This document shows positions 7,459 to 51,086 of a DNA stretch of 64,000 nucleotides, one piece after another. The translations under genes were made by a program, and so were the position numbers. Source of the DNA: Bacteroidales bacterium. Lineage in GTDB: Bacteria > Bacteroidota > Bacteroidia > Bacteroidales > UBA932. How positions within the stretch are numbered: the stretch's first letter is position 1; every line of letters begins with the position of its first letter. The stretch is taken from positions 1-64,000 of the forward strand of contig JAFYYM010000007.1 of the NCBI GenBank assembly GCA_017557535.1. The letters are read 5' to 3'. Under the pieces are notes generated by a model, which saw nothing but the letters and a program-made list of their open reading frames with translations, had not been told where the DNA came from and did not search any database.

Positions 7459-8073
7459 ATGCCCAGATTGTTCATCATATCCGGCTGCAATGGTTCCGGC
7501 AAGACAACAGCGTCATACGCTGTCCTTCCCGAGATGCTCGAATGCAGCGAATTCGTGAACTCAGACGAGTTCGCGAAAAGCTTGTCGCCATTCAGCCCTG
7601 AGAAGGCCTCGGTTGGTGCCAGTAGATATATGCTTCTTAAAATGAGGCATTTACTGGGACGCAAAGAGGATTTCGCGATAGAGACCACCCTGGCCACTAG
7701 GTCCATGCTCAAGTTGATCAAAGACGCGCAGGAGGCAGGGTATCACGTGACTATCCTATACCTCTGGCTGAATTCTCCTGAGCTGGCGGTCGCAAGAGTC
7801 AAGGCTAGGGTCGCCGCCGGCGGCCACAACATCAAGGAGGAGACGATCCGAAGACGTTACAGAGTGGGTCTCCACTACCTGTTCAGGGACTTTATGCCGC
7901 TCTGCGACAGGTGGATCCTGTGCGATAATTCCGAAGACCGGCTTGAGATTGTCGCGGAGAGTTCCGACGCTGGAATCACCGTGAGGAACCCGGAGACATT
8001 CGGCAAGATAAAATCGATGAACTACGAGTACGAGAAAGTGTTGAAAGAAGAAGAAAAGAAGAGGAATGATTAA
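7459..8073 (+). CDS. Zeta-toxin-like P-loop kinase
   Basis: Small ATP-dependent kinase of the zeta toxin / AAA_33 type; zeta enzymes phosphorylate UDP-N-acetylglucosamine, but many chromosomal relatives have unknown substrates. The 204-residue protein has a Walker A motif GCNGSGKTT at residues 9-17 directly after the first strand, a NSDEF segment equivalent to the catalytic Asp region of zeta, FAIETTLATR as the substrate-binding strand, and RRRYRVGLHYLF as the arginine-rich lid. No epsilon-like antitoxin gene adjoins it. Its end overlaps the tldD start by 8 bases, so it is read together with tldD/pmbA, which argues against a simple toxin role. Confidence 0.75.
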   Translation: MPRLFIISGCNGSGKTTASYAVLPEMLECSEFVNSDEFAKSLSPFSPEKASVGASRYMLLKMRHLLGRKEDFAIETTLATRSMLKLIKDAQEAGYHVTILYLWLNSPELAVARVKARVAAGGHNIKEETIRRRYRVGLHYLFRDFMPLCDRWILCDNSEDRLEIVAESSDAGITVRNPETFGKIKSMNYEYEKVLKEEEKKRND

Positions 8074-9643
8074 GCCAGAGAGTTACTACCTGGACTTGTT
8101 CCAGGTGACACCCCGGGGGCTCGAGGAACTTGCCGCCTCTGGTATACGGGAGGGAGGCAGTTATTGCGACCTCTTTTTCGAGAATACAACTTACCATGAA
8201 TTGCTGCTGCGGGACGGTATCGTATCGTCCGGTGGTTTTCATATTGATTATGGGGTCGGTATCCGTGTTTTGAAAGGAGACCGCACCGGTTACGCTTACT
8301 CCGAGAGCACCGATGCCCGTTCCATGAGGGATGCCGTGAAAGCAGCATCCTTAATCGCGCTGCGCGCGATCACGGCGCAGCCTGTCTACCCCCCTGCACC
8401 CCCTAGGGGGACTGAGGGGCGTTCCCCTCAGACTCCCTGCGTCGCTACGCTCCGAACTCAGGCAGGAGCAGTCTTGCCGCAGGCCGAGCCACTGGCCACC
8501 GGCCGTACTCAGCCGCAGCGAAGCGAGAATGGATGCGGCCGGGGCCAGAGGTCGGTCCGGCAATTGAAGGATTATTACCCTTTCGAGCGAGACTGGAGGA
8601 AGGCTGAGACGAGCGGGTTCGAGCCATATATGGAGCGGCTACAGCAGAAGATAAGCGCCTCGGACCAGAGAGTCTTGAAAGTCATCGTCTCCCTGTCCGA
8701 CCAAGTCAGCGACATCATGATGTACAACTCCCTCGGCGAGCTCACCTTCGACACCCGCCCCATGGGGACCATCGCTGTCTCAGTTGTGTTCAGCAGCGAC
8801 GGCAGGATCGAGAACAAGACTGTCTCCAGAAGCTTCAGGACAGGAGCTGAGATGCTCACGGATGCCCTGCTGGACGAGATTGCCTCTGAGGTTGTCAAAG
8901 GTATAGACGAGCGTTTCGCGGCAAGGAGACCCAAGGGAGGCAAAATGCCCGTCGTCATGGGCGCCGGAGCCTCGGGAATACTTCTACACGAGGCCATGGG
9001 ACATGCTTTTGAAGCGGATTTCAACCGCAAAGGCCAGTCCATATTCAGCGGAAGGATCGGTGAGAAGGTCTGCCGCCATGAAATATCGATTGTCGATGAT
9101 GGGACCATCCCTGGAAATAGAGGAGCCGTCAACTACGACGACGAGGGTGTTCCAGGTCAGAACACCTTCATGGTGAGGAACGGAGTTCTGGAATCATATC
9201 TCCACGACCGTATTAGCGCTAACCATTTCGGTGTCTCCCCCACCGGAAACGGCCGCAGGGAAAGCTTCCGCTACGCCCCCATCCCCAGAATGAGAGCCAC
9301 ATACATGCTCGGAGGCAAATCCACAAAGGACGACATCATCGCCTCTGTCAAGAAAGGAATATACGTGGACCAGTTCAGCAACGGTCAGGTTCAGATCGGT
9401 GAAGGAGACTTCACTTTCTTCGTGAAAAGCGGTTTCCTGATTGAGGACGGTCGCCTCACGATGCCAGTCAAGGACATCAATATCATCGGAAACGGTCCCC
9501 AGGCGTTGGCGGACATTGTAGCCGTAGGAAATGATCCGAAAGTGGATGACGGGGCGTGGACATGCGGGAAAGGGCAGAGCTGCCCGGTCTCATGCGGAAT
9601 ACCGACCGTGTTGGTGAACAATCTTACAGTTGGAGGAGAATAG
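8066..9643 (+). CDS. tldD: TldD-type metalloprotease with an in-frame repeat insertion
   Basis: Catalytic subunit of the TldD/TldE (PmbA) protease, which in E. coli trims unfolded peptides such as microcin B17 precursor and CcdA. The metal-binding HEAMGH motif lies in LLHEAMGHAFEADF near residue 308, and the C-terminal SCPVSCGIPTVLVNN segment is conserved. Length is 525 residues; about 70 of these (roughly residues 96-166, DNA 8354-8560) are Pro/Arg/Gln-rich, unlike the family, and are encoded by a stack of palindromes and a copy of repeat family B. The reading frame is kept through the insert. The partner pmbA follows one base after the stop codon. The insert lies between two family-conserved blocks and probably forms a surface loop. 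Confidence 0.92.
   Translation: MIKPESYYLDLFQVTPRGLEELAASGIREGGSYCDLFFENTTYHELLLRDGIVSSGGFHIDYGVGIRVLKGDRTGYAYSESTDARSMRDAVKAASLIALRAITAQPVYPPAPPRGTEGRSPQTPCVATLRTQAGAVLPQAEPLATGRTQPQRSENGCGRGQRSVRQLKDYYPFERDWRKAETSGFEPYMERLQQKISASDQRVLKVIVSLSDQVSDIMMYNSLGELTFDTRPMGTIAVSVVFSSDGRIENKTVSRSFRTGAEMLTDALLDEIASEVVKGIDERFAARRPKGGKMPVVMGAGASGILLHEAMGHAFEADFNRKGQSIFSGRIGEKVCRHEISIVDDGTIPGNRGAVNYDDEGVPGQNTFMVRNGVLESYLHDRISANHFGVSPTGNGRRESFRYAPIPRMRATYMLGGKSTKDDIIASVKKGIYVDQFSNGQVQIGEGDFTFFVKSGFLIEDGRLTMPVKDINIIGNGPQALADIVAVGNDPKVDDGAWTCGKGQSCPVSCGIPTVLVNNLTVGGE
8354..8560 (+). repeat. Palindromic coding insertion in tldD, with repeat family B
   Basis: The segment holds a 7-base-arm palindrome (ATCGCGC / GCGCGAT, 8354-8370), CCCCCTAGGGGG (8399-8410), an 8-base-arm palindrome (CTGAGGGG / CCCCTCAG, 8412-8431) and a family B copy at 8501-8543. 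The B copy is identical at 41 of 43 positions to 50838-50880. Total length keeps the tldD frame open. Composition is much more GC-rich and Pro/Gly/Arg-coding than the flanking gene. Confidence 0.75.
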
Positions 9644-22261: not shown

Positions 22262-22335
22262 GGTCCCCTAGCTCAACTGAATAGAGCATCTGACTACGGA
22301 TCAGAAGGTTACAGGTTTGAATCCTGTGGGGATCA
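22262..22335 (+). tRNA. tRNA-Arg(ACG)
   Basis: Cloverleaf of 74 bases: acceptor GGTCCCC pairs with GGGGATC with one G-U, D stem GCTC/GAGC, anticodon stem TCTGA/TCAGA with loop CTACGGA giving anticodon ACG, and T arm ACAGG/CCTGT. CCA is not encoded. Confidence 0.95.
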
Positions 22336-22342
22336 CTTTTTG

Positions 22343-22415
22343 GCGGAATTAGCTCAGTTGGTAGAGCATCAGCTTCCCAAGCTGAGGGTCGCGAGTTCGA
22401 ATCTCGTATTCCGCT
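22343..22415 (+). tRNA. tRNA-Gly(CCC)
   Basis: Cloverleaf of 73 bases: acceptor GCGGAAT/ATTCCGC, D stem GCTC/GAGC, anticodon stem TCAGC/GCTGA with loop TTCCCAA giving anticodon CCC, T arm GCGAG/CTCGT. Discriminator is T and CCA is not encoded. The last 19 bases are repeated twice downstream at 184-bp intervals. Confidence 0.95.
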
Positions 22416-49060: not shown

Positions 49061-50089
49061 ATGGCAAAAGAGGTAGAAGCACAGGCCGCAGACATCAACG
49101 CCGCGAAAATGAAGGCACTGCAGGCCACGATCGACAAGATTGAGAAAGATTATGGGAAGGGGACGATCATGAAGTTGGGAGAGCAGCCACAATGGGATGT
49201 GCAAGTCATTCCGAGCGGTTCCGTAGCGCTTGACCACGCTCTCGGGATCGGAGGTTACCCTAGAGGCAGGATCGTCGAGATCTATGGCCCTGAGTCCAGC
49301 GGAAAGACAACGTTGGCCATCCATGCGATAGCCCAGGCCCAGAAGGCCGGGGGCATCGCCGCGATGATCGACGCTGAGCACGCGTTTGACAGGACTTACG
49401 CGAAAGCTTTGGGAGTTAATCTGGAAACTCTCCTGATCTCCCAGCCAGACAACGGCGAGCAGGCGCTTGAGATCGCCGACAACCTTATCCGCTCCGGAGC
49501 GATCGACATTGTCGTCATCGACTCCGTAGCCGCCCTCACTCCCAAAGCTGAGATTGAGGGCGAGATGGGAGACAACAAGGTTGGTCTCCAGGCCAGGTTG
49601 ATGAGCCAGGCCCTCAGGAAGCTGACGGCCAACATCGCCAAGACGAACACCTGCTGTATCTTCATCAATCAGCTGCGCGAGAAAATCGGCATCATGTTCG
49701 GCAACCCGGAGACAACCACAGGTGGCAACGCCTTGAAGTTCTATGCTTCCGTCCGTATAGACGTGCGCAGGACCACCCAACTCAAGGACGGAGACGAGGC
49801 GCTCGGCAACAGGACCAGGGTTAAGGTCGTCAAAAACAAGATGGCTCCGCCTTTCAAGAAGGCCGAGTTCGACATTGTTTTCGGCGAGGGTATCTCCAAG
49901 GTCGGAGAGATCATCGATCTCGGTGTCGAGTATGGGGTAATTGGCAAGAGCGGCTCCTGGTTCAGCTACAACGACCAGAAGCTCGCCCAGGGCCGCGAGG
50001 CTGTCAAGCAGCTCCTCAAAGACAATCCCGAGCTGTGTGACGAGATCGAGGCAAAGCTCCGCGAGGCTCTCAAGAACGTCAAGGATTAG
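49061..50089 (+). CDS. recA: Recombinase RecA
   Basis: ATP-dependent strand-exchange protein for recombination and DNA repair. The 342-residue protein has the Walker A GPESSGKT (residues 76-83), the [44 protein letters not shown] block, and [24 protein letters not shown] (L2 loop). The N-terminal region has an extra [16 protein letters not shown]. The stop overlaps the convergent helix-hairpin-helix gene by 11 bases. Confidence 0.98.
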
Positions 50090-51086
50090 GTGGCGGGGCT
50101 ATCCTGCATCTGGAAAATTTCTCATCGAGGCCGGGGTCGAGGATCCCGGCCTTGATTATATTCCCGACTGTCCAGTCCGCTTTGGGGGTGTTATTCCTGA
50201 ATATGATTATTCCCTTCGCCGCCCTTTTCCCGATATAGGGATGACGGGCCAGATCCCCCTCCGGCAAGGTCCATAGCGAATATGGCTCACACGGCCCCAC
50301 AGTTATGAGATCCTTAAGACCGTCAAACTTCTCCTGGTCGAAGTGCCAGATGTCCATCAGTTGTTCAGGGAACGAATACCCTCCCAACTCTTTCCGGTAA
50401 GAGACCATCTTGGCGGCGAAGAATCTCCCAATTCCAGGCAAAGTCTCGAAAGCCGCGGAATCCGCTCTGTTGATGTCAATCTTGGGAATATCGATGTATT
50501 TCTCAAGCCGCTTGTAAACCGAATCCTCCACGACATATGACCTGGCGAAATCAGTCTTTCGCCTGAATCTCCCTCCCTTTTTTCGGTAATTATCAATAGC
50601 TTCCGCCTGCCTCTGACTAAATCCCAGACGCATTAGATCATCCACGCTCACGGTGTTCGGATCGAACCTGAAGCTCTCGTATCGCCTCGGTTTATTCGCC
50701 CTCCAGATATCCCTCGCCGCTTTGCCATATTTACTTGCTGACGAACGGCCTTCCCCTGCCAGCTCCGGTGGCTCGACTGCTCTGGTTGCGGTGGGCGAGC
50801 CCACCCCTGCTGCTGCCGGAGCAGCCGTCGAGCCTAGGCCGTACTCAGCCGCAGCGAAGCGAGGATGGACGCGGCCGGGCTCGAGCGGCTGGCCGGCAAA
50901 TACTCGGGTACCGGAGGAATCAACGAAGACGTAGACGGTGTCGGGATGGTCATGATTGGCGACTATCCTGGCCACGGATGCTTTGGTGATGAAAAGCGCT
51001 GCTTGATAGCCGATGATTAGAAAGATGAGGGCTACGGAACCCACGACGAAAGAGGCAGAAGGCCTGCCCCGCTTTGTGTTTTTCAT
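50079..51086 (-). CDS. Helix-hairpin-helix DNA-binding protein with a repeat-derived insertion
   Basis: Protein of 335 residues with an N-terminal transmembrane segment ([21 protein letters not shown]) and a C-terminal part with several helix-hairpin-helix motifs: [44 protein letters not shown] and [18 protein letters not shown]. The second is ComEA-like and suggests DNA uptake or binding outside the membrane. Residues about 60-112 (50750-50905) are Ala/Gly/Pro-rich ([20 protein letters not shown]) and come from repeat family B. The frame is intact. Domain identity is clear, function is inference. Confidence 0.8.
50750..50905 (-). repeat. Repeat-derived coding insertion in the helix-hairpin-helix gene
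   Basis: Contains the family B copy 50838-50880 (41 of 43 identical to 8501-8543) and an inverted pair GGCTCGAC (50768-50775) with GTCGAGCC. The protein segment it encodes is Pro/Ala/Gly-rich and has no counterpart in ordinary ComEA-type proteins. Confidence 0.7.

Follow-up and report, generated by a model that had tools for sequence, protein, structure and literature searches.

The insert that interrupts the tldD gene of a Bacteroidales bacterium very probably carries one member of a family of palindromic elements that are non-autonomous and code for protein, an explanation that we hold, taken as a whole, with high confidence. The window analysed comprised 64,000 nucleotides of one contig of this genome (hereafter G000). 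A preliminary description of this DNA had proposed a small translatable element that enters genes in the manner of those of Rickettsia, which proved to be the right class of explanation, and the 525-aa tldD ORF was indeed uninterrupted through the insert. The description had also taken the ~70-residue stretch for one element. Inserted repeats are certainly there, but a single 207-bp element was rejected because the segment is a composite of two repeat families lying side by side, a B module and an A element (Table 1).

Table 1. Coordinates of the tldD insert, its parts and the second A element within the window.
Feature	Position	Strand	Remarks
tldD, host gene	8066..9643	+	525-aa ORF open through insert; HEAMGH motif kept
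Short inverted repeat	8354..8370	.	7-bp arms; not clearly belonging to the A or B family
B module, second palindromic repeat family	8380..8456	.	DNA matches L002 (92% over 76 nt), L003, L024, L027
A element in tldD	8479..8561	+	83-nt imperfect hairpin; tldD orientation; codon phase 0
A-element conserved core (apical part) in tldD	8501..8543	+	41/43 to 50837-50879; 23-copy alignment
Second A element of window	50815..50897	+	antisense to host gene; phase 1; R2 match 50807-50902, E 3.3e-24
Host gene of second copy	50079..51086	-	helix-hairpin-helix protein (PF12836)

According to Pfam, TldD domains 1, 2 and 3 of the ORF span residues 34-98, 188-278 and 292-524, respectively, with the Pro/Arg/Gln-rich stretch sitting between the first two. 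The TldD chain 5nj5_A from the PDB aligned to residues 32-97 and 190-524 of the query, which has 92 residues between these blocks vs 39 in the chain. Copies of the B module were located in Pfam-recognised ORFs (L002 and L024) and in the DnaG ORF (L003), and only ORFs of at most 110 aa cover the copy L027. Three short palindromes, previously read as the signature of an element, occur exactly where they had been placed (8354-8370, 8399-8410 and 8412-8431) but are weak evidence when taken alone, since palindromes of these types numbered 37, 20 and 11 in the window and 10-21, 12-23 and 3-6, respectively, in five Markov shuffles. Unlike them, the long hairpin at 8471-8566, which a repeat search at default settings misses, exceeds chance: its folding energy was -59 kcal/mol vs -38.7 ± 3.6 for 200 shuffles (z -5.65), none of which was as stable. 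In the search of G000, covariance model R2 matched this interval with an E value of 2.4e-17, which is not independent, as the tldD copy belonged to the training set of the model. The 41/43 identity reported between its core and a second place in the window was confirmed.

Stop-to-stop TldD ORFs of 29 relatives measured 382-562 aa (the shortest is cut off) vs 532 here. The clean gap at residues 96-166 that had been anticipated in sister proteins was absent; the insert place is a linker of variable length in all relatives aligned, and the segment is not conserved in their TldD proteins. In the nearest relative, G032, TldD has 497 aa with a core remnant at the insert place, and no remnant was seen at that place in the 478-aa protein of the next nearest, G019. 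Conservation of the host domains suggests that TldD tolerates the insert.

Twenty-three A copies of G000 aligned without gaps, except for one deletion in L014. The apex of the element is conserved and the stem varies from copy to copy yet remains paired, with 92.6% of 666 cells paired and two-sided changes in 19 of 29 pairs. The covariation score was 0.404 vs 0.150 in shuffled alignments and 0.05-0.10 when the partners were slid (maximum 0.099). In a second set of 61 distinct rows, the alignment of which was fitted to the model, 96.9% of cells were paired and covariation was 0.282 vs 0.091. The consensus hairpin consists of 29-30 pairs arranged in three helices over a paired span of 83 nt, and each arm leaves one nucleotide unpaired, always in the same position (columns 15 and 79). 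Outside the stem, columns 1-8 and 92-97 of the alignment hold no conserved residue.

The genome-wide copy count that the preliminary description had asked for showed further copies. A DNA search of G000 at E<=10 returned 40 matches, a few to the B module and most of the rest to the A element, and R2 returned 28 matches at E<=1. When copies inside and between genes were counted, all 28 lay in ORFs reading through them (the shortest of 93 aa) and 24 lay in Pfam-recognised proteins, representing 21 of the 25 distinct ORFs. The hosts, named by our reading of the Pfam hits, were PriA, DnaG, FtsK, methionyl-tRNA synthetase (MetRS), TruB, KsgA (two copies), TldD, ATP synthase gamma AtpG (two copies), ATP synthase A chain AtpB, a GHMP kinase read as IspE, CitX, a CitC/CitG fusion, peptidase U32 (two copies, one a weak 28-bit match), GH2, GH31, GH95, an Fe-S/CCG protein, a HAD hydrolase, a transglutaminase, and HHH and SPOR proteins. 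The second copy of the window occupies residues 82-109 of the stop-to-stop ORF of its host. L054 lies in a 570-aa ORF without Pfam match, at a site that recurs in four genomes, and three copies in ORFs of 93-134 aa without Pfam match (L043, L055 and L057) may be intergenic. Without claiming that copies are enriched in genes, we note that the element does not avoid them and that reading frames stay intact. Two other features were recorded in this genome. In the ftsK region (L316:6373-6480) a third repeat adjoins the A element; it matched many times in the searched genomes of the clade and is probably a more abundant family, with a peptide like TLGTVRGGTGAERSEASGG. Two adjacent tRNA genes of the window (22262-22335 and 22343-22415) were its sole Rfam hits at gathering score.

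We then consider the related genomes, all of them drafts. Within the genus, 34 of 400 genomes matched at E<=1e-5 and 366 gave no match at that cut-off; scoring was confined to the 10 best candidates of each genome, so that copy numbers are lower bounds and weak matches may be lost. An order-wide sample, which included just one other genome of the genus and two from the family's other genera, gave a match in 1/295 genomes, this one, with copy numbers that are again lower bounds (best 14 candidates per genome, stricter filters). In a smaller sample, 7/61 genomes matched at E<=0.01, this genome included, and all seven belong to the genus. Among the genomes searched, only one genus has strong matches, and most of these fall within a single clade of that genus. 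Among the matches listed for the 400 genus genomes, those closest by MetRS (88-98% identity, three of the values spanning just the first 495-504 residues) were G320, G408, G212, G113, G422, G169, G065, G095, G175, G185, G300, G386 and G032, and all 13 carry strong model matches. G019 and G106 came next (87-88% over ~500 residues) with few matches, and the others listed were at or below 84%. G235 was 90% identical to this genome across the ATP operon. Diverged matches were found at 17 loci in G026, G019, G034, G008 and G035. In G026, G008 and G035, 11 of 12 such matches lie in ORFs of 287-784 aa; in the more distant genomes G019 and G034, all four matches of the former and the single match of the latter lie in ORFs of 70-152 aa that are not evident genes, and these matches are probably located between genes. 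A pattern scan of contigs, able to detect the ATnGGA-type subtype alone, identified six contigs titled Bacteroidales, including one yak rumen and one reindeer contig. Carriage by phages or plasmids was rejected, as no match was obtained in viral contigs with one exact pattern or in plasmid and phage collections with one 83-nt copy as query.

From the relatives, 56 loci yielded 64 matches, 62 of them distinct, and the frame was open through 62/62, within putative host ORFs of 147-890 aa. Together with the 28 own copies and six of the eight G032 matches they form a set of 96 copies, from which the 17 loci of G019, G026, G034, G008 and G035 were excluded as too diverged. Match length was 96, 105 or 120 nt in 88 of these copies and 91, 95, 97 or 106 nt in the other eight, a few loop variants giving the matches of 105-120 nt. 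In L045 (citX, C98:7389-7508), L257 and L261 a small palindrome of the CCCTTCGACAAGCTCAGG type is nested in the apical loop, which results in 120-nt matches with the frame kept.

Automatic clustering by host flanks resolved 41 sites, 23 of which were present in at least two genomes; one chimeric cluster, in which three hosts were joined via another shared repeat, was split by hand before the final counts. The same insert was found at the same place of IspE in G000, G113 and G320, and of AtpG and AtpB in G000, G320 and G235. The MetRS linker gave model matches in G000, G113, G422, G065, G175 and G185, held only a short remnant-like peptide in G408, G212 and G095, and was short and without element in G106, G019 and G096. 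In TruB, which was read by peptide and is cut off in G320, the element was missing from G185 and G300 and present as such, as a variant or in tandem in 11 others. At the first place in KsgA most relatives shown have a short turn and G032 has other repeats; at the second place the length varies among relatives. Some linkers carried further peptides: a B-module-like peptide fills the loop of G032 KsgA (L173) where G000 has the A element, the element peptide occurs twice in tandem in the same TruB linker of G235 and G065 (L322, L325), and other REP-like peptides (VIPSEAKES, CHSERSEES) are found in frame in the MetRS linker of other clades of the genus (G255, G359, G318, G148 and others). ATP-operon sites, too, carry other palindromes in other clades. 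Tolerant linkers therefore seem to have been entered repeatedly by whichever repeat a clade has. Linkers lacking the element were seen in relatives for KsgA, AtpG, MetRS, TruB and TldD. Thirteen aligned ATP operons offered no clean base-level empty site and no target duplication, their flanks being too diverged or repeat-laden.

Both orientations of the element were found, in different species, at 11 of the 23 multi-genome sites. At priA, where host sequence is alignable on both sides of the element in G408 and G000, the right arm of G000, read as its reverse complement, is identical to the left arm of G408 at 24/24 nt, and the reversed G408 copy agrees with the G000 copy at 79/89 nt vs 68/89 for the best copy from another site. 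Judging from these arms, the whole hairpin, bulge included, appears to have turned at priA. Opposite orientations also lie between alignable flanks at GH95, GH2, GH31, MetRS and CitX, without such site-specific arms. A sister copy at atpG seems to combine a retained left arm with a reversed core, but we did not count it as proof, because the right half has been lost to a deletion. At the GH31 site of G000 and G235 (L035, L264) a remnant arm stands just upstream of the element, and the types of the remnant and of the element's near arm are exchanged in one genome relative to the other, with the direction of the spacer kept.

Relative to the host frame, the element was antisense in 60 of the 96 copies and sense in 36. 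Sense phases 0, 1 and 2 were open through 82, 86 and 26 copies and antisense phases 0, 1 and 2 through 28, 91 and 4, phase 1 being the phase open both ways in most copies. Phase 1 was used at 35 of 41 sites vs 56% expected from openness (p 6e-5, the sites being not fully independent), and at 34 of 38 once three doubtful hosts were removed. Sense phase 0, open in 82 copies, was used by five; the tldD copy is in this phase, which is usually closed after a flip. The bias fits a history of flips, and a preference at the protein level for the phase-1 peptide is an alternative.

Same-site, same-orientation comparisons (51, from 19 sites) gave 59 two-sided kept changes vs 24.7 ± 2.7 expected and 41 one-sided pairing losses vs 92.6 ± 4.6 expected. 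When each site contributed a single comparison, 19 of 342 pairs had changed on both sides and stayed paired and 21 had lost pairing by a one-sided change, so upkeep of the arms is far from perfect. Because kept changes exceed expectation and losses fall below it, the stems are partly renewed in place, be it through selection, through copying from arm to arm or through overwriting from other copies. Overwriting has support in the identical copies at unrelated sites. The 83-nt copies of GH95 in G185, of the HHH-protein gene in G113 and of MetRS in G422 are letter-identical, and so are those of DnaG in G212 and MetRS in G235. A site-to-site identity test used those copies that are exactly 96 nt long (77 of the 96). 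For 35 of the 62 copies with an ortholog, some copy at another site matched at least as well as the best ortholog. Most sites are common within the clade, and many copies are inherited rather than fresh; for that reason the case for recent jumps rests on copy identity, which gene conversion between copies could equally produce. The mobility proposed in the preliminary description is in this way supported indirectly, by letter-identical copies at unrelated sites of different species.

The opposite orientations might also have arisen from independent insertions at one tolerated spot instead of inversion in place. Since the same linkers take other repeats in other clades, hot spots do exist, and clearly kept site-specific arms were seen at priA only. 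However, those priA arms are both kept and reversed, over 24/24 nt on one side, and the copy is nearer to its relatives at this site than to any copy from elsewhere; moreover, codon phase is kept at the two-orientation sites, except in the decayed U32 copy L058. We consider independent insertion unlikely on this evidence. Still less likely is a structured RNA element acting in the mRNA as an attenuator, a processing site or another signal. Strong covariation, very stable folds and unpaired bases at fixed places would all suit such an RNA, but the element lies both ways, even at the same site, so that the transcript sees either strand, and the hosts are unrelated genes. No Rfam family reached threshold on the two copies of the window, and a known Rfam RNA was rejected, as the window yields only the two tRNAs and eight loci yielded one unrelated sub-threshold hit. 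An antisense position in 60/96 copies makes a role of the structure in mRNA improbable, and a DNA hairpin appears to be the better reading.

Ribosome bypassing or RNA excision, by which the segment would never be translated, is very improbable. Bypassing needs just this kind of structure, a stable hairpin inside essential genes, but an open frame, needless in a skipped segment, covers all 90 copies read; the restriction of 88/96 match lengths to three values is a weaker point against skipping. There remains hardly any room for an ordinary variable, disordered linker with compositional repeats and no element at all. The TldD linker does vary in all relatives aligned and short palindromes are weak alone, but this account was rejected on the 28 structured copies with covarying arms in unrelated genes. 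An artefact of assembly or binning has an equally negligible probability: the genomes are fragmented drafts, but independent genomes have the same insert at the same place (IspE, AtpG, AtpB) and 34 of 400 genomes match.

In the explanation that we favour, a family of translated palindromic elements, machinery recognising the DNA hairpin, with an enzyme that we postulate, would copy or move the element. Survival would be limited to insertions that fall in a tolerant loop or linker and keep the frame open, and the insert would be translated as a spacer. Occasionally the hairpin would be flipped whole in place, for example via a cruciform or a single-stranded hairpin during replication, and copies in the codon phase open both ways would then persist best. 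Elements would finally decay by in-frame deletion into short peptide remnants that lengthen host linkers. A caveat to this account is that GC-rich palindromes can contain long frames by chance. Y1-type transposase genes (weak, partial matches) were present in 7/7 match-bearing genomes of the 61-genome sample and also in 20 of 30 genus genomes without element matches. A flanking Y1 transposase was rejected as the mobiliser, since the core pattern was not beside Y1 matches in 16 regions of G000, G032, G026, G008 and G019; the sole Y1 region with core hits contained the two ksgA copies, more than 3 kb away.

The joint reading of frequent whole-element inversion, selection for the both-ways-open phase and renewal of the hairpin in place is more tentative, and we rate its chances slightly below even. 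If it were true, one locus would, over evolutionary time, encode now one and now the other of two unrelated ~28-residue inserts in essential proteins, and with hairpins renewed by arm copying or overwriting, genes would carry a maintained DNA structure within coding sequence. Many related species have the elements in core enzymes such as ATP synthase, primase, MetRS and PriA, and the 366 of 400 genus genomes without match make gain, inversion and loss traceable on a tree. The system bears on the tolerance of selfish DNA in essential genes, on the origin of protein linkers and on the persistence of long bacterial palindromes.

The available portions of the literature report in-frame palindromic repeats chiefly from Rickettsia and Wolbachia; elsewhere, intragenic REPs are scattered. 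Among the papers listed by keyword searches of the open literature, with most subscription papers outside their reach, none reported such elements in Bacteroidales. Integron attC sites are bulged hairpins too, conserved at the base; they were put aside because the A element is conserved at the apex. The closest description is that of the Rickettsia palindromic elements (RPEs), given as 105-146 bp long (Ogata et al. 2000 as described in the available text of PMC2229807) and also carried by truB of R. conorii (excerpts of PMC3733652). Both systems place hairpin repeats in frame inside conserved protein genes (PMC2229807, same excerpts), as long stem-loops with inverted-repeat arms, here of 29-30 pairs. 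In contrast to RPEs, the paired span here is 83 nt, and whereas RPEs are said to lose repeat identity over time (excerpts of PMC6649704), the arms of the A element change on both sides and stay paired above expectation, with some decay as well. Inversion in place is a feature of the A element, and no mention of it for RPEs was found in the accessible parts of the literature compared. Compared by description and not by sequence, the A element works like an RPE; we do not file it as one, because neither the length nor the loss of repeat identity agreed.

The palindromic elements of Wolbachia (WPE-like) are described, in the sections available, as in-frame inserts in priA, addA and addB (PMC4224334); both systems have in-frame palindromic inserts that include priA, but the hosts belong to another phylum with another way of life, and the likeness is one of description, not of sequence. 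GTAG/CGTC REPs are given in the accessible text as 20-40 bp repeats with a stem of 5-13 bp and an unpaired end tag, mostly between genes, the intragenic ones often in replication and repair genes; those of the CGTC class have no dedicated transposase and are known from several phyla, Bacteroidetes included (PMC3733652). The A element is likewise palindromic, with intragenic copies in priA, dnaG and ftsK, but it differs from this description (PMC3733652) by its ~30 pairs in three helices. It also has no conserved unpaired tetranucleotide end tag (alignment columns 1-8 and 92-97), and 24 of the 28 own copies are in Pfam-recognised proteins, three in short ORFs and one in the 570-aa ORF. Unlike GTAG REPs with their RAYT, no transposase gene flanked by the repeat was found in the 16 Y1 regions. 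The A element is not a GTAG/CGTC REP.

For nematomorph mitochondria, excerpts of PMC6649704 describe coding palindromes that are perfect repeats, with arms encoding conserved residues of the host protein; they share with the A element the maintenance of paired arms in coding sequence, and the A element differs in being a repeat family of dispersed copies. The Correia 107-bp and ERIC elements are, in the available text, similarly small repeats with open frames fused into genes and are listed with target-site duplications (PMC2229807), whereas none was shown for the A element in the 13 aligned ATP operons. The Cardinium MITE is described as lying mostly outside genes (excerpts of PMC9769881). 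All in all, the A element differs from the Rickettsia and Wolbachia elements and from intragenic REPs in its architecture, in the upkeep of its arms and in its apparent inversion in place.
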